This document shows positions 4,191 through 11,996 of a stretch of DNA of 64,000 nt, piece by piece. Source of the stretch: Herbaspirillum sp. YR522 (lineage in GTDB: Bacteria; Pseudomonadota; Gammaproteobacteria; Burkholderiales; Burkholderiaceae_D); the NCBI RefSeq assembly GCF_000282575.1, contig NZ_AKJA01000017.1, forward strand, positions 62,001 to 126,000, written 5' to 3'. The notes beneath the pieces were generated by a model. It worked only from the letters and a program-made list of their open reading frames with translations, did not search any database and was not told the DNA's origin. Each line of letters begins with the position of its first letter. Position 1 is the stretch's first letter. A program made the position numbers and the translations under genes.

Positions 4191-5699
4191 ATGACTTTTG
4201 AAGCACTTGGCCTTAACCCTTCGATCATCAAAGCACTGACCGAAGCCGGCTATACCGTCCCGACCCCAGTCCAGGAAAAAGCCATCCCTGCCGCCATCGC
4301 CGGCCAGGATCTGCTGGTTTCGTCGCAGACCGGTTCGGGCAAGACCGCGGCATTCATGCTGCCTTCGCTGCACAAGCTGGCTGAACTGCCGCAAGCTGCC
4401 GAAGGCGCCGGCGCCGCCCGCACGCCCAACCAGGAACGCCAGGCCAGCCGCTCGCGCGGCGAGCGCCCGCGTTTCACCCCGGCCCAACCGAAGATGCTGG
4501 TGCTGACCCCGACGCGCGAACTGGCGTTGCAGGTCACCACCGCCACCGACAAGTACGGTTCGTACATGCGCCGCGTGCGCGTGGTGTCGATCCTGGGCGG
4601 CATGCCTTACCCGAAGCAGATGCAACTGCTGTCGAAGAACCCCGAAATCCTGGTGGCGACCCCTGGCCGCCTGATCGACCATATGGAATCGGGCAAGATC
4701 GATTTCTCGCAACTGCAGATCCTGGTGCTGGACGAAGCCGACCGCATGCTGGACATGGGCTTCATCGACGACATCGAGAAGATCGTCGCCGCCACTCCCG
4801 ATACGCGCCAGACCATGCTGTTCTCGGCTACGCTGGACGGCGTGGTCGGCAACATGGCCAAGCGCATCACCAACAATCCGGCCACGATCCAGATCGCCGG
4901 TTCGGCCACCCGCCACGAAAACATCATGCAGCGCGTGCACTTCGTGGACGACCTGTCGCACAAGAATCGCCTGCTGGACCACCTGCTGCGCGACGTGACG
5001 ATGGACCAGGCCGTGGTGTTTACCGCCACCAAGCGTGACGCCGACACCATCGCCGACCGTCTCAACATCGGTGGTTTCGCGGCCGCCGCATTGCATGGCG
5101 ACATGCACCAGGGCGCACGTAATCGCACCCTCAACAGCCTGCGCCGCGGCCAGGTTCGCGTGCTGGTGGCCACCGACGTCGCCGCGCGCGGTATCGACGT
5201 GCCGGGCATCACCCACGTGTTCAATTACGACCTGCCGAAGTTCGCCGAAGACTATGTGCACCGTATCGGCCGTACCGGCCGTGCCGGTCGCAAGGGCGTG
5301 GCGATCTCGCTGGTGAACCATGCAGAAGGCATGCATGTGAAGCGTATCGAGCGTTTCACCAAGCAGTCGATCCCGGTCGATGTGGTCGAAGGCCACGAAC
5401 CGAAGAAGACGGCATCGGCTTCGCGCAGCCCGCGCAAGCCAGGCAACTGGCGTCCGGGCGATGGCCGCAGCAACAATGCAGGCGGCGCTGGCGCCCGCTT
5501 TGGCAACCGCGAAGGTGGCGGTGGTCAACGCGAAGGTGGTTTCGGCGGCAATCGCGAAGGTGGTTTCGGTGGCAACCGTGACGGCCGCAGCTTCGGCGGC
5601 AAGCCGGCCGGTGCCGGTGGTCCGCGTCGCGAAGGAGGCGGCTACAAGGGCGCTGGTGCCCGTACCGACGGCCCACGTCGCTCCTACGGCGATCGTTGA
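4191..5699 (+). CDS. rhlE: DEAD-box ATP-dependent RNA helicase, RhlE type
   Basis: RNA-dependent ATPase/helicase acting in RNA remodelling (ribosome assembly, RNA decay, cold adaptation in relatives). The 502 residues show motifs in order: Q motif (GYTVPTPVQEKAI, 21-33), Walker A (SQTGSGKT, 45-52), PTRELA, the DEAD box (D181-E-A-D184), SAT, and HRIGRTGRAGRKG. An insert of about 35 residues rich in Gln, Arg and Ala sits between motifs I and Ia. The last 100 residues form a Gly/Arg-rich tail with repeated GGFGGNREGG units, typical for non-specific RNA binding. A strong terminator follows. RhlE is the closest subfamily by motif spelling and tail. Confidence 0.93.
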   Translation: MTFEALGLNPSIIKALTEAGYTVPTPVQEKAIPAAIAGQDLLVSSQTGSGKTAAFMLPSLHKLAELPQAAEGAGAARTPNQERQASRSRGERPRFTPAQPKMLVLTPTRELALQVTTATDKYGSYMRRVRVVSILGGMPYPKQMQLLSKNPEILVATPGRLIDHMESGKIDFSQLQILVLDEADRMLDMGFIDDIEKIVAATPDTRQTMLFSATLDGVVGNMAKRITNNPATIQIAGSATRHENIMQRVHFVDDLSHKNRLLDHLLRDVTMDQAVVFTATKRDADTIADRLNIGGFAAAALHGDMHQGARNRTLNSLRRGQVRVLVATDVAARGIDVPGITHVFNYDLPKFAEDYVHRIGRTGRAGRKGVAISLVNHAEGMHVKRIERFTKQSIPVDVVEGHEPKKTASASRSPRKPGNWRPGDGRSNNAGGAGARFGNREGGGGQREGGFGGNREGGFGGNRDGRSFGGKPAGAGGPRREGGGYKGAGARTDGPRRSYGDR

Positions 5700-5760
5700 T
5701 TGCCGTGATCGCCGGCGCGTGATCGCCGAGCTGTAGCAAGCTTGCTTGCCACGAGAAGAC

Positions 5761-5792
5761 ATACCCGATGAGTGATCATCGGGTATTTTTTT
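5761..5792 (+). terminator. Rho-independent terminator of rhlE
   Basis: Perfect 11-bp stem ATACCCGATGA (5761-5771) / TCATCGGGTAT (5776-5786) with a GTGA loop, followed by a T-run to 5792. Confidence 0.92.
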
Positions 5793-6005
5793 GGCGCGCG
5801 CCACGCGGATGGCCGGGCAACGACCTGGCACACCGGGCGACTGCGCACGGTGCCTCTGCCGCGCCGGATGCAACGGGGATTTTTCTAATAAATACACGCC
5901 GTTACCGAGCGCTCTTTCAAATTCCCGTGACTGAATATCGCGCCCGGTGCTTCTAGAGTGAAGCCACCACCGATCCCGGTGGCATCCATCTGCAAGGAGC
6001 ATCCC
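5793..6005 (+). promoter_or_regulatory. Upstream region of the peptide cassette
   Basis: This stretch lies between the rhlE terminator and the candidate precursor gene. It includes an AT-rich tract (about 5880-5900) in otherwise GC-rich DNA and must contain the cassette promoter, since the terminator isolates it from rhlE. I cannot name a convincing -35/-10 pair. A strong Shine-Dalgarno AAGGAG (5994-5999) sits 6 nt before the ATG at 6006. Confidence 0.45.
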
Positions 6006-6167
6006 ATGACATCCAGCAACCTGGACGCGATTGTCCAACCCGCCGCCGACCAACTGATCCAGCACGATATCGAGCGCGCCCGGCAGGAGGTCGAGATCCA
6101 GATCCATCACAGCCCGTGGAACATGAACCAACGCTTGAACATGATCGCCTACGAAGACCAGGCCTGA
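6006..6167 (+). CDS. Candidate RiPP precursor peptide (53 aa)
   Basis: Small gene with one of the best ribosome binding sites in the window (AAGGAG, 6-nt spacing). The 53-residue product starts MTSSNLDAIVQPAADQLIQH and has no signal peptide or membrane segment. The first 33 residues are acidic and likely helical, like a recognition leader. The last 20 (HHSPWNMNQRLNMIAYEDQA) are rich in Asn, His, Met, Trp and Tyr, as expected for a modified core. It is the first gene of an operon with an HExxH protein, an ABC exporter and a JmjC-type oxygenase, the classical setting of a ribosomally made, modified peptide. I do not recognise a named precursor family. The precursor role is inferred from size, position and partners. 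Confidence 0.65.
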   Translation: MTSSNLDAIVQPAADQLIQHDIERARQEVEIQIHHSPWNMNQRLNMIAYEDQA

Positions 6168-6218
6168 GTCGAACGGGGGCGCCTGCCGGGCGCCCCTTCC
6201 ATGGGAAGAGGCAAGCAA

Positions 6219-7145
6219 ATGATCCTGCAGACCAGCCATCTGGATTTGATGAATACCGTGCTGACCCTGGTAGAAGCCAGCCAACCCGACGCCGGAAGGA
6301 ATTGCCGCTCCCTGGAACAGGTCCGGGCCGGATACCGAAGCTTCCTGCAATCATTAAAGCAACGTCAGGTCGATATCGCATCGCGCGAGATATCGTTCAT
6401 TACCGAGCACGGTGCCACCGCAACCCTGCGCCACTATTTTGCCAATGATTCACTGCTTGACGACCGCCAGCAGGCCGAGGTCATCGGGCATGCCCAAGAC
6501 CACCGCACGGCGCAGAAGCTGGCGCGCCTGGATTGCGCGCTACATGAGGTCTCCCTGTATTCGCGCGACTACCTGGATTTTCTCCAGACCATCATCACCG
6601 ATATCTTCATCCTGCCGTCGGACAAGGCGCGCGCCGGCTCGACCTCGCAGGCGATCGGCCTGATCTGGATGAATCCCAGGCCGACCTATACCCTGCCCGA
6701 CATCATCGAGATGCTGGTGCATGAGTTCACGCACCACGCGATGTTCCTCGACGAGATGAAGTACAGGCATTATTCATATGAACGAGTACTCGACCGGTCC
6801 ACCTGGGCCCGCTCGGCGATCCTCAATATCGCCCGTCCGCTGGACAAGGTATTGCACAGCATCGTCGTGTCCACCGAGATACTGCTGTTTCGCAACAGCT
6901 TTCTTGGCCATCCGATGGCGCCCCGGGTCCATCCGCCCACCAACAAGCTGGCACTCCAGCTCAAGACTTCGCTGGTGCAAGCCGAGCAATCCGTACGCGC
7001 CCACCCCGACGTGCTGAGCGAACGGGGTAGATACGTTCTTGCCAATGCCCATCGTATTTTCCACAGCGCCATCGGCCCCTTGCTCATGTCCCGGCGTCAG
7101 CCTTTCATGCCTCCGATGCGCCCGCCGGCGCAAGCCGTGACGTGA
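6219..7145 (+). CDS. HExxH-motif protein, putative peptide-modification enzyme
   Basis: 308 residues, soluble, with no signal peptide. The core motif is MLVHEFTHHAMFLDEM, with H168-E169-x-x-H172 in a long helix. Upstream of it, IGLIWMNPRPTYTLPDIIEM resembles the strand-plus-helix that precedes HExxH in the HEXXH peptide-modification family (TIGR04267-type), whose members sit beside RiPP precursors. The motif could hold iron or zinc; which one, and whether it hydroxylates or cleaves, cannot be read from sequence. The start at 6219 is chosen because GGAAGAGG (6203-6210) is well spaced before it; an ATG at 6201 has no ribosome binding site. The stop overlaps the next start (GTGA), indicating translational coupling. 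Confidence 0.6.
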   Translation: MILQTSHLDLMNTVLTLVEASQPDAGRNCRSLEQVRAGYRSFLQSLKQRQVDIASREISFITEHGATATLRHYFANDSLLDDRQQAEVIGHAQDHRTAQKLARLDCALHEVSLYSRDYLDFLQTIITDIFILPSDKARAGSTSQAIGLIWMNPRPTYTLPDIIEMLVHEFTHHAMFLDEMKYRHYSYERVLDRSTWARSAILNIARPLDKVLHSIVVSTEILLFRNSFLGHPMAPRVHPPTNKLALQLKTSLVQAEQSVRAHPDVLSERGRYVLANAHRIFHSAIGPLLMSRRQPFMPPMRPPAQAVT

Positions 7146-8500
7146 ACCTGCGCCCACGCCAATGGGCGAGCATCCATGGCCATGCAAGCGCAGTCGCAAG
7201 CTTGCTGCTGGTGCTGCTCCACCAGGCCATCGTCGCCAGCTCGACCATTTTCCTGACCGCGATCATTGCGTCGTTCCAGGCCGGCAAACCCTTTCTTCCA
7301 GCGCTGGTCATGTTTCTCGCGACGATGACCTTGCCCTATCTTCCCGGCGCCATATCGTTCTACACCCTTCAAGTATGGGTCAACCGGGCGCACATGCGAT
7401 TTGTCATGGAAGCCGCGAGCGCAGGCGCCGGCAACGTCAACGCCTATCGAAACGGGGATTTGCGCGAACGCACCGAATCGATATTGGCGCGCAACTCGTA
7501 CCCGGTCATCAGGGACTATCTCGGCGCGGTGCATGAGCTGGCCAGCTTCGCCCTCAACAGCCTGCTCAGCGTGCTGGTGATCGGCTTGCTGCTGCCGGCC
7601 CAGCTGCTGCTGGGTTACCTGGCCAGCCTGCTCATGTGTGCCGTGATCATCGCCGCACTCACGCGGCCGATCGCCAGGCAATCGGCGCACAGCGAAGATT
7701 GCTATGTGCGGTTCTCGGCAACCTTGAGCAAGTGCTGGGACAACCTGATGCTCGGCAATCGGCACAACCGCAACGTCTGGGTCGCCCAGGTCGACGATGA
7801 CGGCCAGCGCTTCTATCGCGCGTCGAATCGGCTCGAACTGATCAAGCAGGTGGGCAATGTCGTGCTCGCGGCCGCATCGCTGGGACCGAGCGTATTGCTG
7901 ATCGTGATGCTGGCCTCCAGTGGACAGACCGCTGCCGCGTCGCTGGCGGCGGTCATTGTCAGCCTGACCCGGATATTCCTGATCCTGAACGCCCTCAGTA
8001 CGTTGGTCTATCGTGTGCTGGACCTGATTTCCTTGCATGCAAAGATGCGCGTCCTGTTCAGGTTGCAGGCATCGCTATCGGCTGCGGAGGATCCGCCGCG
8101 CGGCGCGATATCGTCAATCTCGATCAATGGCCAGGCCGTCGGCGACATGCAGCAGGCGCTGGACATCCTGGCCTCGCGCAGTGCCGGCAGGTTCACCATC
8201 ACCGGCCCCAACGGAGGCGGCAAGTCGACCGTACTGCTGCGGCTCAAGGAGCAACACCGGGACCGCGGCTTCCTGCTACCGGCCCAGCATGGCAACCTGA
8301 TGTGGAAATCGTGTCCCGACTCCTTTTCCACAGGCCAGCGAAGCGCCGCAATCCTGACCGAGGTGCTTGGTATTGCGCATATCAAGTGCCTGCTGCTGGA
8401 CGAATGGGACGCCAACATGGACGAGGCCAATACCAGACGCATCGACGCCCTGCTGGAGCACACGAGCAAAGAAAGAATCGTCATCGAGACACGTCACTGA
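7142..8500 (+). CDS. ABC exporter with unusually short ATPase domain
   Basis: 452 residues with a GTG start overlapping the previous stop by 4 bp. Residues about 15-300 contain hydrophobic blocks consistent with six membrane helices of a type I exporter, likely moving the modified peptide out of the cytoplasm. The C-terminal ATPase domain has Walker A GPNGGGKST (355-363), a Q-loop-like LLPAQH, a degenerate signature FSTGQRSA in place of LSGGQ, and Walker B CLLLDEWDANMD. It ends exactly at an H-loop-like His (VIETRH, stop). Only 98 residues separate Walker A from the end, against roughly 180 in ordinary exporters, so most of the helical subdomain is missing. The next gene follows 9 bp later with a good ribosome binding site, so the end looks natural. 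Confidence 0.7.
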   Translation: MNLRPRQWASIHGHASAVASLLLVLLHQAIVASSTIFLTAIIASFQAGKPFLPALVMFLATMTLPYLPGAISFYTLQVWVNRAHMRFVMEAASAGAGNVNAYRNGDLRERTESILARNSYPVIRDYLGAVHELASFALNSLLSVLVIGLLLPAQLLLGYLASLLMCAVIIAALTRPIARQSAHSEDCYVRFSATLSKCWDNLMLGNRHNRNVWVAQVDDDGQRFYRASNRLELIKQVGNVVLAAASLGPSVLLIVMLASSGQTAAASLAAVIVSLTRIFLILNALSTLVYRVLDLISLHAKMRVLFRLQASLSAAEDPPRGAISSISINGQAVGDMQQALDILASRSAGRFTITGPNGGGKSTVLLRLKEQHRDRGFLLPAQHGNLMWKSCPDSFSTGQRSAAILTEVLGIAHIKCLLLDEWDANMDEANTRRIDALLEHTSKERIVIETRH

Positions 8501-8509
8501 GGAAGCATC

Positions 8510-9691
8510 ATGAGCAACGATTTTGTCGATTGGCTGCTAAAGGGTGAGCAATTCCAGTCGTGCTATTCGACAGGAAGTTTCTGGCTCGGCAGGTATCCCG
8601 CCGCGGGCCTGCCCGCCATCTTCTCGTGGGATAGGCTCAACGACTGCCTGACTTGCAACCGCATTACCAATGACCGCCTGCGCCTGTCGACGGCGCAACA
8701 ATACGAACAGTTCAACAAACGCGTCTTCCGGGCGACCCGGGACGCATTTGGCCGACCTACCGACCATCTGCTGATACACGAACTACAGGCAGTGATGGGG
8801 AGCGGCGTGACTGCCGTCCTCGAAGCCGTCAACGAATTGACCCGCCCCCTGGCCGAGATGACGCAATGCCTTGCCTGCGCATTGGATGTCAGGTCCGCCG
8901 CCAACGCCTATATGTCATTCGGGCTGACATCGGGATTCGGCGTTCATCACGATGACCACGACGTGATCATCATCCAGATCGATGGCAGGAAGAAATGGCA
9001 ATTCTTTTCGTTGCCGGATGCAAATGAAAAGGCCACCGTGGCAGACCTTGAGGCACCAACCGAAAGCGACCGCGGCCAAAGCGTGATCATCCACACCGGT
9101 GACGTCATGTTCATTCCCAAGGGAACCTGGCATGACGTCACGGCCATGAACGAGCGCAGTCTTCATCTCACGATCAGCCTGGTCAATCCCACCCTGCTGG
9201 ATTTCGCGCAGTGGATGCTGAAAAAGCAAGGGCCGCTGTTCTCACGTGAGGATATTCGGCGCAATCCTGCATTTTGCGAGCGATCCCTTGCCTTGTTTCG
9301 TGACGCGTGGGAGAGCCTTTGCAACCCAAACGCCTTGCAGGATTTTCTCAGGCATTACCACGCTTCGCATACCGTCTCGCCGATCGAAGCGACTTTTCCT
9401 ACGCTGCATTGCGCGCAGGTCGACGACCGCTTCCGACGGACCACATCCGATGTCGTGCTCACGCAGGAAATCGACGGCGCAGGCAAGGTGACGATCTTTG
9501 CGTCGGGCCGGACGCATCGGCTGACCCAGGACGAATACGCGCTACTGCTGGCATTACCGTGCGGTTGGGGCGAACCCGGATCCGCCCTGCTGGTGGACGG
9601 CCGCCAATGGAGCGACATCGCGCCGGTCTTGACGAGCCTGATGGACAAGGGCCTGGTCGGCAAGAGGGTCGACGCCCGGGCAAGCTGCTGA
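8510..9691 (+). CDS. JmjC/cupin-like Fe(II)/2-oxoglutarate oxygenase
   Basis: 393 residues, cytoplasmic. The double-stranded beta-helix signature is clear: GFGVHHDDHDVIIIQIDGRK gives the HxD iron ligands (H146 or H147 with D148 or D149). GDVMFIPKGTWHDV follows, and the distal His is in HLTISLVNP (H219). Layout and length resemble bacterial ribosomal-oxygenase-type JmjC proteins (YcfD-like), including a C-terminal region of about 150 residues after the catalytic fold. Instead of a housekeeping location, it is the last gene of the peptide cassette, so hydroxylation of the small peptide is the likely role. Ribosome binding site GAGGAAG lies directly upstream (8499-8505). Fold is well supported; substrate is inferred. 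Confidence 0.72.
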   Translation: MSNDFVDWLLKGEQFQSCYSTGSFWLGRYPAAGLPAIFSWDRLNDCLTCNRITNDRLRLSTAQQYEQFNKRVFRATRDAFGRPTDHLLIHELQAVMGSGVTAVLEAVNELTRPLAEMTQCLACALDVRSAANAYMSFGLTSGFGVHHDDHDVIIIQIDGRKKWQFFSLPDANEKATVADLEAPTESDRGQSVIIHTGDVMFIPKGTWHDVTAMNERSLHLTISLVNPTLLDFAQWMLKKQGPLFSREDIRRNPAFCERSLALFRDAWESLCNPNALQDFLRHYHASHTVSPIEATFPTLHCAQVDDRFRRTTSDVVLTQEIDGAGKVTIFASGRTHRLTQDEYALLLALPCGWGEPGSALLVDGRQWSDIAPVLTSLMDKGLVGKRVDARASC

Positions 9692-9700
9692 CGTACCTGA

Positions 9701-9728
9701 GCCCAGGCGCGGTCGCGGCGCCCTGGGC
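9701..9728. terminator. GC-rich hairpin between convergent genes
   Basis: GCCCAGG (9701-9707) pairs with CCTGGGC (9722-9728), with further GC pairs inside. It sits between the convergent ends of the oxygenase gene and pqiC. No T-run follows on either strand, so it is at best a weak terminator. Confidence 0.35.
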
Positions 9729-9741
9729 CACACTCGTACCC

Positions 9742-10377
9742 TCAAGCCGGGCTGGACTGGCTGCATGTCTGCTGCCCCGCCGCCAGGTTGCGTACATCGG
9801 CGGCAATCGCCTGGGCACCCCGGTCGGCCACCCTCTGCGTCGCCGTCACCACATCGGCGACGGCACCGCCACTGACGGCTTCGGTGAGCGCCAGGCGGCA
9901 CACGAGCGTCTTGCGGTCGTCAGAGCGGGTGATGGTCCAGCCCAGTGCCGCCTGGACCTGGCCGTTGCGCACCGCGTCGAGATCGCGCAATTCGACCGCA
10001 ATGCGATAGCTCACACCGTCGGCCGGACGACCGCTGCGCGAGACATCGATGGCGCCCAGTCGGCGCGATACGCCGTTGGCAAGCGCATCGCGCAATTCGT
10101 TATTGAATGGCGACGACCAGCGTTCGGTTTCCAGCACGTCGACCCGCGTGGCGTCGTTGCGCACCACGATCTGCGGGCGCGCCAGGCGCTCGGGTACGGC
10201 CACCGGCAACACCTCGATGAACATCGGCGCAGTGGACATGCCGGCGCTCGCGGTGACTGCAGTGGGCGACGTCACCAGCGTATAGAACTGCGTCGGCGGT
10301 GTGCTGCCACAGGCCGTCAGCGCCAGGGTGGCCACGGCGAGGCTGACGATGGAGATCTTCTTGCGGGCTGGCATCAT
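9742..10377 (-). CDS. pqiC: PqiC-like outer-membrane lipoprotein
   Basis: Third component of the Pqi lipid-transport/envelope integrity system. The 211-residue product starts MMPARKKISIVSLAVATLAL and has the lipobox LTACGS, so it is a lipoprotein. FYTLVTSPTAV and the body match the ABC-type transport auxiliary lipoprotein (DUF330) family, which forms a ring joining PqiB needles to the outer membrane. Its ATG overlaps the pqiB stop by 4 bp. Confidence 0.88.
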   Translation of the reverse strand: MMPARKKISIVSLAVATLALTACGSTPPTQFYTLVTSPTAVTASAGMSTAPMFIEVLPVAVPERLARPQIVVRNDATRVDVLETERWSSPFNNELRDALANGVSRRLGAIDVSRSGRPADGVSYRIAVELRDLDAVRNGQVQAALGWTITRSDDRKTLVCRLALTEAVSGGAVADVVTATQRVADRGAQAIAADVRNLAAGQQTCSQSSPA

Positions 10378-11996
10378 GGCTCCTGTTTGCCCCGGATCAG
10401 CGATTCGGGATGCTGTTGCAGGTAATCGGTAAGGACGCGGATCGACGCCGCCGCCCGCGACAGTTCCTGCATGGTCTGGCGGATATCCTGCTGTAGCGGC
10501 GCATCATCGGACAAGGTCCGTTCGGCCGCATTCAAGGTCTTGCGCGCATCCTTCATGGCCGCCGACATTTCCGGGGCGATGTCGTTGTTGATACGCGAGA
10601 CCGTCTGCTCGGCCGTGGTCAGGGTCTGGTTGAGTTTCCTGACCGTGACTTGCAGGTCTTTTCCGATCTCGTCGAACGGCACCTTGGACAACTTGCCCGC
10701 AATCTCGGACAACTGGGTCTGCAATTCATCCAGGCTGCCAGGCACGGTCGGCAATTCGATCGGCGTCTTGCCGGTGTCGATCTGGACCGGCTTGGCCTTG
10801 GGGAAGAAATCGATCGCCACGTATAACTGGCCAGTGAGCAGGTTGCCGTTGCGCAGCTGCGCCCGCAGGCCGCGCTTGACCAGGAACTTCAAGCGCTCGG
10901 TCGGCGAATAACGCGGGTCGGCATTGTCCTGCGTAAAGCGCCGTCCCAGGCGATCGGGATAGAGCGTCACCAGCACCGGCATGCGGAAGGCCCCCTTGTC
11001 GCGGTCGTACTCGATGCCGATGTTCTTGACCTCGCCCAGCACCACGCCGCGGAAGTCGACCGTCGCCCCCGGCTGCAAGCCGCGCAGCGACTGGTCGAAA
11101 TACAGCAACACCGTGGCCGGCGGGCCGTCCGGATCCTTCATGGCCGCGCCTTCGTCCTCGGCCAGCTGATATTCGGCGCCCTCCTTGGCAGGCGTGTCGT
11201 GCGCATTCTCGTCGCGCTCGCGAAAGGCGATGCCGCCCAGCACCACGGTCGACAAGGCCTGGGTATGCAGCTTGAAACCACTGGCGTTGAGTTCGGCGTC
11301 GAAACCGCTGGCATGCCAGAAGCGCGTGCCCTGGGTCACGAACTTGTCGTAGGGCGCATTGACGAAGATGCGCATCGTCACGCCGCGGCCGTCGTCGTCC
11401 AGGTCGAACGCCATCACCTGGCCGACCTTGATGCGCCGGTAGTACACCGGGGTGCCGATGTCGAGCGAGCCGAGGTCGTCGGCGTGCAGCACGAACTGGC
11501 GTCCCGAGGCATCACGGGTGACGATGGGCGGTTGTTCCAGCCCCTCGAACTGCTTCTTGGTCTCTTCCGAGGTACCGGCGTCGACGCCGATATAGGCGCC
11601 CGAGAGCAAGGTACCCAGCCCCGAGATGCCCGAGGCGGCGATGCGCGGGCGCACCACCCAATAGCGGGTGTCGTCGGCATCGAAGCCGGACGCTTCCTTG
11701 GTCAGCTGGATCGATACCAGCACATGCGAACGGTCTTCGGCCAGCTTGATGCTCTGCACCTGGCCGATATCGACATCCTTGTACTTGACCTTGGTCTTGC
11801 CTGCCTCCAGCCCTTCGGCCGAACGGAAACTGACGGTCACCACCGGGCCGCGGTCGACCAGGATCTTGGCCACCAGCGTCAGCCCCACCACGGCGGCAAT
11901 GATGGGAATGAGCCAGACCAGCGATGGCAGCCAGTTGCGACGGTGCTCGCGCTTGGGCTGCAACAGGGCCGGTTTTTCGTCATGCGGATCGGTCAT
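10374..11996 (-). CDS. pqiB: PqiB, MCE-domain lipid transport protein
   Basis: 540 residues. A short cytoplasmic N-terminus is followed by one membrane helix (WLPSLVWLIPIIAAVVGLTL, about 22-41). Three MCE domains come next, each opening with the V-x-F-x-x-A-x-G-L/V pattern (VTVSFRSAEGLEAGKTKVKY for the first). A C-terminal helical part (LDELQTQLSEIAGKL onward) would form the needle tube. In E. coli PqiB forms a periplasm-spanning lipid conduit. It is fused by 4-bp overlaps to pqiA upstream and pqiC downstream, so stoichiometric translation is likely. Confidence 0.93.
   Translation of the reverse strand: MTDPHDEKPALLQPKREHRRNWLPSLVWLIPIIAAVVGLTLVAKILVDRGPVVTVSFRSAEGLEAGKTKVKYKDVDIGQVQSIKLAEDRSHVLVSIQLTKEASGFDADDTRYWVVRPRIAASGISGLGTLLSGAYIGVDAGTSEETKKQFEGLEQPPIVTRDASGRQFVLHADDLGSLDIGTPVYYRRIKVGQVMAFDLDDDGRGVTMRIFVNAPYDKFVTQGTRFWHASGFDAELNASGFKLHTQALSTVVLGGIAFRERDENAHDTPAKEGAEYQLAEDEGAAMKDPDGPPATVLLYFDQSLRGLQPGATVDFRGVVLGEVKNIGIEYDRDKGAFRMPVLVTLYPDRLGRRFTQDNADPRYSPTERLKFLVKRGLRAQLRNGNLLTGQLYVAIDFFPKAKPVQIDTGKTPIELPTVPGSLDELQTQLSEIAGKLSKVPFDEIGKDLQVTVRKLNQTLTTAEQTVSRINNDIAPEMSAAMKDARKTLNAAERTLSDDAPLQQDIRQTMQELSRAAASIRVLTDYLQQHPESLIRGKQEP

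Follow-up and report, generated by a model that had tools for sequence, protein, structure and literature searches.

A four-gene candidate peptide cassette pairing a predicted aKG-HExxH peptide hydroxylase with a JmjC oxygenase in Herbaspirillum sp. YR522

Among the clusters described for ribosomally synthesized and post-translationally modified peptides (RiPPs), the closest counterparts of the system considered here are the biphenomycin clusters (bip, bpm and pbs), in which an alpha-ketoglutarate-dependent HExxH (aKG-HExxH) enzyme, BipH/BpmH, and a JmjC enzyme, BipG/BpmG, act on one precursor, the latter as an ornithine (Orn) gamma-hydroxylase (PMC12707348, PMC12257519). The same pairing of an HExxH with a JmjC enzyme is found in a four-gene cassette of Herbaspirillum sp. 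YR522, contained in a stretch of 64,000 nucleotides (contig NZ_AKJA01000017.1, positions 62,001-126,000) that is hereafter called the window and supplies all coordinates. The biphenomycin clusters add an MNIO and its partner, a B12-radical SAM enzyme, an arginase and TldD, and they modify an FRF core, whereas the cassette has none of these; its four genes are flanked directly by rhlE and pqiC/pqiB, and its core lacks FRF and reads WNMNQxLNMIAYEDQ. The pfl and pos clusters of Pseudomonas resemble the cassette in combining an aKG-HExxH enzyme (PflC, PosC) with a small precursor, transporters and no cluster protease; however, they encode an MNIO-nitroreductase fusion and a GNAT protein rather than a JmjC enzyme, and their precursor has a nitrile-hydratase-like leader and a poly-Gln-ARMD tail (PMC12636437). 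The nitrilobacillin pes cluster likewise encodes an aKG-HExxH enzyme, PesO, but differs in its MNIO, its asparagine-synthetase-like nitrile synthase, its M16 peptidases and the absence of a JmjC enzyme (PMC13060819). An earlier, sequence-only reading of this DNA had not recognised the combination of parts in the cassette. The pairing of HExxH with JmjC is in fact known from the biphenomycin clusters, whereas no RiPP cluster modified by an HExxH enzyme alone, or by HExxH plus JmjC, was found in the open-licence literature of PubMed Central, and the minimal two-oxygenase recipe appears to be new to the literature.

The cassette (6006-9691, + strand) comprises, in this order, a 53-codon gene and genes for an aKG-HExxH protein, a compact ATP-binding cassette (ABC) exporter and a JmjC_2 oxygenase. 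As judged by sequence comparison, it very probably encodes a RiPP pathway whose sole modifying enzymes would be two Fe(II)/2-oxoglutarate oxygenases of unrelated folds, with export as the step that follows. The earlier reading had proposed that precursor, HExxH modifier, exporter and JmjC oxygenase were acquired together, and family models, conservation and synteny all agree with it; all four frames are present in the order it gave, joined by a 4-bp overlap and short gaps. The features of the cassette are as follows.

5994..5999, + strand: ribosome-binding site AAGGAG of the precursor gene, read off the sequence, 6 bases 5' of the first ATG
6006..6167, + strand: putative precursor gene, 53 codons, leader about residues 1-37 (alignments, codon differences, co-occurrence with the HExxH gene)
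6117..6161, + strand: putative core, residues 38-52, WNMNQRLNMIAYEDQ, near-invariant across seven loci
6175..6197, + strand: hairpin between precursor and HExxH genes, 10 pairs and a 3-base loop; a hairpin is present in 14/14 loci
6219..7145, + strand: predicted aKG-HExxH type peptide beta-hydroxylase, 308 aa, HEFTH motif at 6720-6734
7142..8500, + strand: compact ABC exporter half-transporter, 452 aa, Walker A at residue 355, STGQ at 396, DEWDAN at 420, peptidase domain absent
8510..9691, + strand: JmjC_2 Fe(II)/2-oxoglutarate oxygenase of ribosomal-oxygenase type, 393 aa, with H146-x-D148, H208 and K161

The HExxH protein starts with MILQ at 6219, a start conserved in relatives, rather than at the in-frame ATG at 6201, and the ABC gene, which has a GTG start, overlaps the HExxH stop codon by 4 bp. 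The ribosome-binding site ahead of the 53-codon gene is strong, and a scan of 5600-9900 found no sigma-70-like promoter.

The identity of the second gene, which the sequence-only reading had likened to HExxH peptide-modification proteins of TIGR04267 type, is borne out by a score of 89.1 bits against that model (aKG-HExxH-type peptide beta-hydroxylase; cut-off 40), which is also matched at E<=0.001 by 8/8 members of the HExxH alignment. The motif itself is kept in 13 of 14 loci, the window included, the exception being a YExxH in locus L015 from a metagenome-assembled genome (MAG). The structure comparison with known HExxH RiPP enzymes that had been suggested gave as nearest solved folds the HExxH domain of ChlB (8s5f) and SjiH (22ob), at 12-14% identity, and the model matches these two family oxygenases far above any other structure; the alignment profile found nothing at E<=1 among PDB sequences, so that the family is visible there by fold alone. 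By score, motif and predicted fold the protein thus belongs to the aKG-HExxH peptide hydroxylases, with the corresponding activity predicted.

Fourteen close loci remained after removal of duplicates: seven with a JmjC gene, six without one whose short gene contains a PLRMI motif, and L055. A short frame lies upstream of the HExxH gene in 14/14 of them (that of L055 was chosen among several frames), so close HExxH homologues do not occur without a neighbouring short gene. The small gene also co-occurs with the enzyme at genus level, the precursor profile matching exactly the same 3 of 34 genomes that carry the HExxH gene (genome counts here and below include the window's own). Conservation of the 53-codon frame, on which the earlier reading had staked its proposal, extends to the six other JmjC-class loci, where it lies beside the same genes, and a chance frame is thereby ruled out. 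No Pfam or NCBIfam family matches the precursor, nor do five relatives match any in NCBIfam. The pattern of variation is the reverse of what had been expected, namely change only in the last 20 residues: in the alignment of the seven JmjC-class loci the tail W-NMNQxLNMIAYEDQ is nearly invariant and the leader diverges. Codons 38-52 show 121 synonymous against 12 non-synonymous pairwise differences, and all 12 are due to the only two changes in core residues 38-52, P43R in the window and D51G in L015, whereas codons 2-34 show 150 synonymous against 422 non-synonymous differences in the same loci. Leader and core therefore evolve differently and selection acts on the core; a hypervariable core is ruled out, the tail being the constant part.

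The JmjC class comprises the window, L011 (Herbaspirillum), L012 (Burkholderia), L013 (Noviherbaspirillum), L014 and L016 (both Cupriavidus) and L015 (a Duganella MAG), and the order precursor-HExxH-ABC-JmjC holds in 7/7. In L015 (7001-9868), the YExxH motif is accompanied by EGQ in place of EDQ in the core and by a JmjC frame broken near the contig end, which looks like joint decay or assembly errors. The class without JmjC comprises L009 (genome G112), L017, L024 (genome G616), L027 (an Acinetobacter plasmid), and L053 and L054 (genus of L017); in each a short gene ending in PLRMI(A/S)Y(D/E/N)DM and a short tail precedes the HExxH and ABC genes, with 3 to 15 residues beyond the tail motif. 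The HExxH gene of L009 is split over two frames. A tblastn search with six JmjC proteins found no JmjC gene in these six loci, and only weak JmjC_2 matches were obtained when G112, G616 and G1401 were searched whole. WNMNQ, in turn, is present in 7/7 JmjC-bearing loci and absent from 6/6 JmjC-less PLRMI loci. In L024 (6413-8677; G616:C9) the HExxH and ABC genes are naturally fused into one open frame of 754 codons. The short gene beside the fusion ends in PLRMIAYDDMMKED, and an integrase-like frame, named by eye, lies downstream at 9958-10782.

HExxH matches were obtained in 5/294 genomes of the family sample (one weak), 3/34 of the genus, 3/399 of the order sample (one weak), 1/369 of the class sample (the window's own, with no further close member) and 2/398 of the phylum sample (the window's own and one weak match, again with no further close member), as well as in 6/175 genomes of Acinetobacter, the genus of L017 (one weak), and 1/5 of the genus of G112. 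A scan of named genome contigs with the alignment returned seven loci and one with the single sequence no relative; a plasmid scan returned two near-identical Acinetobacter plasmids and five distant records.

The JmjC protein scores 78.3 bits against PF08007 (JmjC_2; cut-off 22), its metal residues H146, D148 and H208 are invariant in 6/6 sequences, and its model shows a ribosomal-oxygenase fold, including HxD...H and the C-terminal helical/winged region. By profile and fold it shares the JmjC_2 family with the ribosomal oxygenases NO66, MINA53 and YcfD; its gene, however, sits with a peptide gene, and this context argues for a peptide rather than a ribosomal protein as substrate. A second JmjC_2 gene, a weak match elsewhere in the window's genome (G000:C89), is probably the housekeeping one. 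In the exporter, G-x-N-G-x-GK(S/T), STG(Q/E) and DEWDAN are found in all 10 ABC rows compared, and the N-terminal half of the window's protein is hydrophobic by hydropathy. In the window (7142-8500) and in relatives the ATPase part is shortened, with 41 residues from Walker A to STGQ, and the DEWDAN box is unusual and invariant. An exporter with a C39 peptidase domain (PCAT) is ruled out, the 452 aa starting at the membrane part with no Pfam or NCBIfam peptidase match. A weak NF045998 match spans model positions 155-513 only. A role in anti-phage defence was likewise rejected, PADLOC giving only two weak partial matches for the ABC protein (mad3, SspC) and none for the other three. A distant relative of the compact exporter, at 24% identity, is found on the mobilizable Psychrobacter plasmid pA11BP3 (9.8 kb; L029, 4017-5273), which carries no annotated HExxH gene and whose record is not among the matches of the HExxH protein search.

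A hairpin between precursor and enzyme genes is expected where the precursor must be made in excess. The gap between the precursor stop and the HExxH start folds into a hairpin in all 14 loci, although the sequences are unrelated, with z <= -1.9 against dinucleotide shuffles in 13; in L009 the gap measures 58 bases (start by homology) and contains the hairpin. The element is a probable attenuator or mRNA-stabilising structure.

What happens to the peptide is inferred here: whether and where it is modified, in which sequence the enzymes act, whether it leaves the cell and what the product does. The gene identities, gene order, core selection and co-occurrence reported above are observed, and so is the insertion between rhlE and pqiC described below. 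The 53-residue precursor would be produced in excess, as its own strong ribosome-binding site and the hairpin before the next gene suggest, and its variable N-terminal half would serve as a leader that guides modification. The aKG-HExxH enzyme would hydroxylate at least one residue of the shared core PLxMI[A/S]Y[D/E/N]D. The JmjC enzyme would likewise hydroxylate a residue of the segment confined to its own class, namely WNMNQ and Asn45 (Arg in the other class); this assignment of enzyme to segment follows from the match between enzyme set and core. Hydroxylation of Asn, as by FIH, is a reasonable guess for the JmjC enzyme. The leader would be removed by a protease encoded elsewhere, given that the cassette has no protease gene, and the small ABC exporter would carry the product out of the cell. 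Hydroxylation by HExxH enzymes has been reported on His, Asp, Phe, Gln and Pro (PMC13060819), which would make Asp51, Pro43 (replaced by Arg in the window) and the Glu and Gln residues candidate targets of the enzyme in the cassette. The assignment of WNMNQ to the JmjC enzyme follows the same logic as the argument made for PesO, where a core Pro occurs only together with the HExxH gene and such co-occurrence was confirmed by mass spectrometry (PMC13060819).

Several observations weigh against this pathway or narrow it. The cassette contains neither a protease gene nor a recognisable immunity gene, the ABC protein falls under the Pfam ABC_tran cut-off (17.3 vs 25 bits), and the window's own hairpin has a z of only -0.9, no stronger than shuffles, because the gap is GC-rich. 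One close HExxH-ABC locus, L055 (5595-8118; G1483:C129), has a quite different precursor tail, VYASFGQQMVAM, in the frame chosen; its contig stops 285 bases beyond the exporter, a hairpin follows its short gene, and it may represent a third class of product. HExxH relatives at greater distance in other bacteria (24-33% identity; L010, L028, L044 and L056) lack this exporter and motif in 4/4 cases, which confines the association to the close clade. Finally, a single branch separates the JmjC-bearing rows from the others in the HExxH tree (support 90/93) and in the ABC tree (support 65/72); the seven-to-six split is therefore not a set of 13 independent trials, and the link between JmjC and WNMNQ may reflect one single event.

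The lack of any other protease in the cassette also lends itself to a different account, in which the HExxH protein acts as a genuine zinc peptidase, either cleaving the leader or maturing the exporter cargo, and leaves the JmjC enzyme alone to decorate the peptide. HExxH is a zincin motif, the only Pfam match of the protein, sub-threshold at 14.1 bits (cut-off 27), is to the putative metallopeptidase PF20573, and PflC, a member of the same family, hydrolyses a truncated substrate (PMC12636437). Such a role is nonetheless quite improbable in view of the score against the peptide beta-hydroxylase model and the nearness of the fold to two solved family oxygenases. Moreover, the JmjC-less loci retain both HExxH and the tail motif, which marks the HExxH protein as the constant modifying enzyme. 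That this enzyme goes beyond side-chain hydroxylation and oxidatively cleaves the backbone near the tail to leave a C-terminal amide, as PflC and PosC do at ARMD, is a proposal to which the performance of both reactions by those two enzymes lends some weight (PMC12636437). The 3 to 15 residues that follow the motif in JmjC-less precursors could be what is removed. The JmjC-class precursor, by contrast, ends one residue past EDQ, with little left to remove, and Ala48 of MIAY, the only invariant small residue of the core, lies five residues from the end; we regard cleavage as unlikely.

Alternatively, the product of the small gene may be no substrate but a short protein that regulates the enzymes or exporter or acts as their partner. 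An end that stays the same from genus to genus is unusual for many bacteriocins, and no leader-cutting peptidase is present. Yet it is a brief C-terminal segment that stays constant, and this segment changes according to whether JmjC is present; both enzymes come from families that act on peptides or proteins, and a separate first gene bounded by a hairpin is the usual layout of a precursor; we consider a regulator or partner very unlikely.

The cassette is, on comparison with related genomes, an acquired unit inserted in the gap between rhlE and pqiC and transferred horizontally as a whole. The surroundings of the insertion are as follows.

4191-5699, + strand: rhlE, left flanking gene
5761..5786, + strand: rhlE terminator, outside the cassette, 11-pair stem then T run; a similar hairpin lies 3' of rhlE in genome G207
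5828..9771, + strand: inserted segment, approximate extent between rhlE and pqiC (blastn homology breaks, rhlE/pqiC adjacency in relatives)
9742-10377, - strand: pqiC-like gene, right flanking gene
10374-11996, - strand: pqiB-like gene, beyond the pqiC-like gene

In 9/9 other genus loci examined, out of 30 other genus genomes with a pqiB match, rhlE and pqiC are adjacent with a short gap; one of these loci is that of genome G281, in which the cassette is located elsewhere. Homology by blastn to relatives ends at about 5703 and resumes at 9772 in most comparisons. In the nearest relative, G207, which lacks the cassette, it reaches 5827 and includes the terminator (5747-5827 aligned), and the insertion therefore probably starts after about 5827. 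The strong terminator that the earlier reading took to isolate the cassette from rhlE does exist as a hairpin with a T run, but it appears to be rhlE's own, given its similar counterpart in that cassette-free relative. The lower GC content that had been noted by eye as a sign of acquisition is confirmed, at 0.602 over 6006-9691 vs 0.646 in the window outside 5828-9771, with equally low values in 2 of 242 sliding windows of that length, both of which may extend into the cassette. Apart from the cassette genes no gene is common to more than 3 of the 11 loci compared, so the moving unit consists of these genes and no more. No obvious terminal repeats of the inserted segment were found among the repeats listed (the best 20 of 21 direct families). 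Carriage by a phage or virus was rejected, one viral-contig scan giving no relative; the phage collection lay outside that scan.

Other gene neighborhoods encountered in the comparison deserve mention in their own right. On a Staphylococcus warneri plasmid (L028, 6974-7852) a TIGR04267-like gene lies by a major facilitator superfamily (MFS) transporter gene, and the compact exporter is absent. A plasmid of Streptomyces sp. NBC_00690 (L042, 8559-10920) carries in a row a 46-codon gene, a distant HExxH relative annotated as hypothetical and a radical SAM gene, a candidate for another RiPP cluster. In Cupriavidus sp. IDO (L014, 11359-14704), about 850 bases 3' of the cassette, an asparagine-synthase-like gene and a full-length ABC exporter gene resemble part of a lasso-peptide cluster.

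A broader scenario can be offered tentatively, as a possibility with rather less in its favor than the pathway itself. The cassette may represent a class of RiPPs modified by hydroxylation only, in which a three-gene ancestor (precursor, aKG-HExxH enzyme and coupled or fused exporter) once gained a ribosomal-oxygenase-type JmjC enzyme together with WNMNQ. Its product, being chemically constant across genera, would be expected to serve as a metal ligand or signal rather than as an arms-race bacteriocin, hydroxylated Asp, Asn and Glu being good metal ligands. If the pathway is as proposed, the cassette would be among the smallest natural settings of an aKG-HExxH enzyme, without radical SAM, MNIO, YcaO or lanthionine synthetase, and a JmjC_2 enzyme of ribosomal-oxygenase type acting on a secreted peptide would join the few known (BipG, PbsQ). 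The natural fusion of HExxH enzyme and exporter suggests that modification is coupled to export. Because a defined segment of the precursor distinguishes loci that have JmjC from those that lack it, the substrate of each enzyme can be tested directly, and the two classes would be a clear-cut example of how a pathway acquires an enzyme along with the site it acts on.

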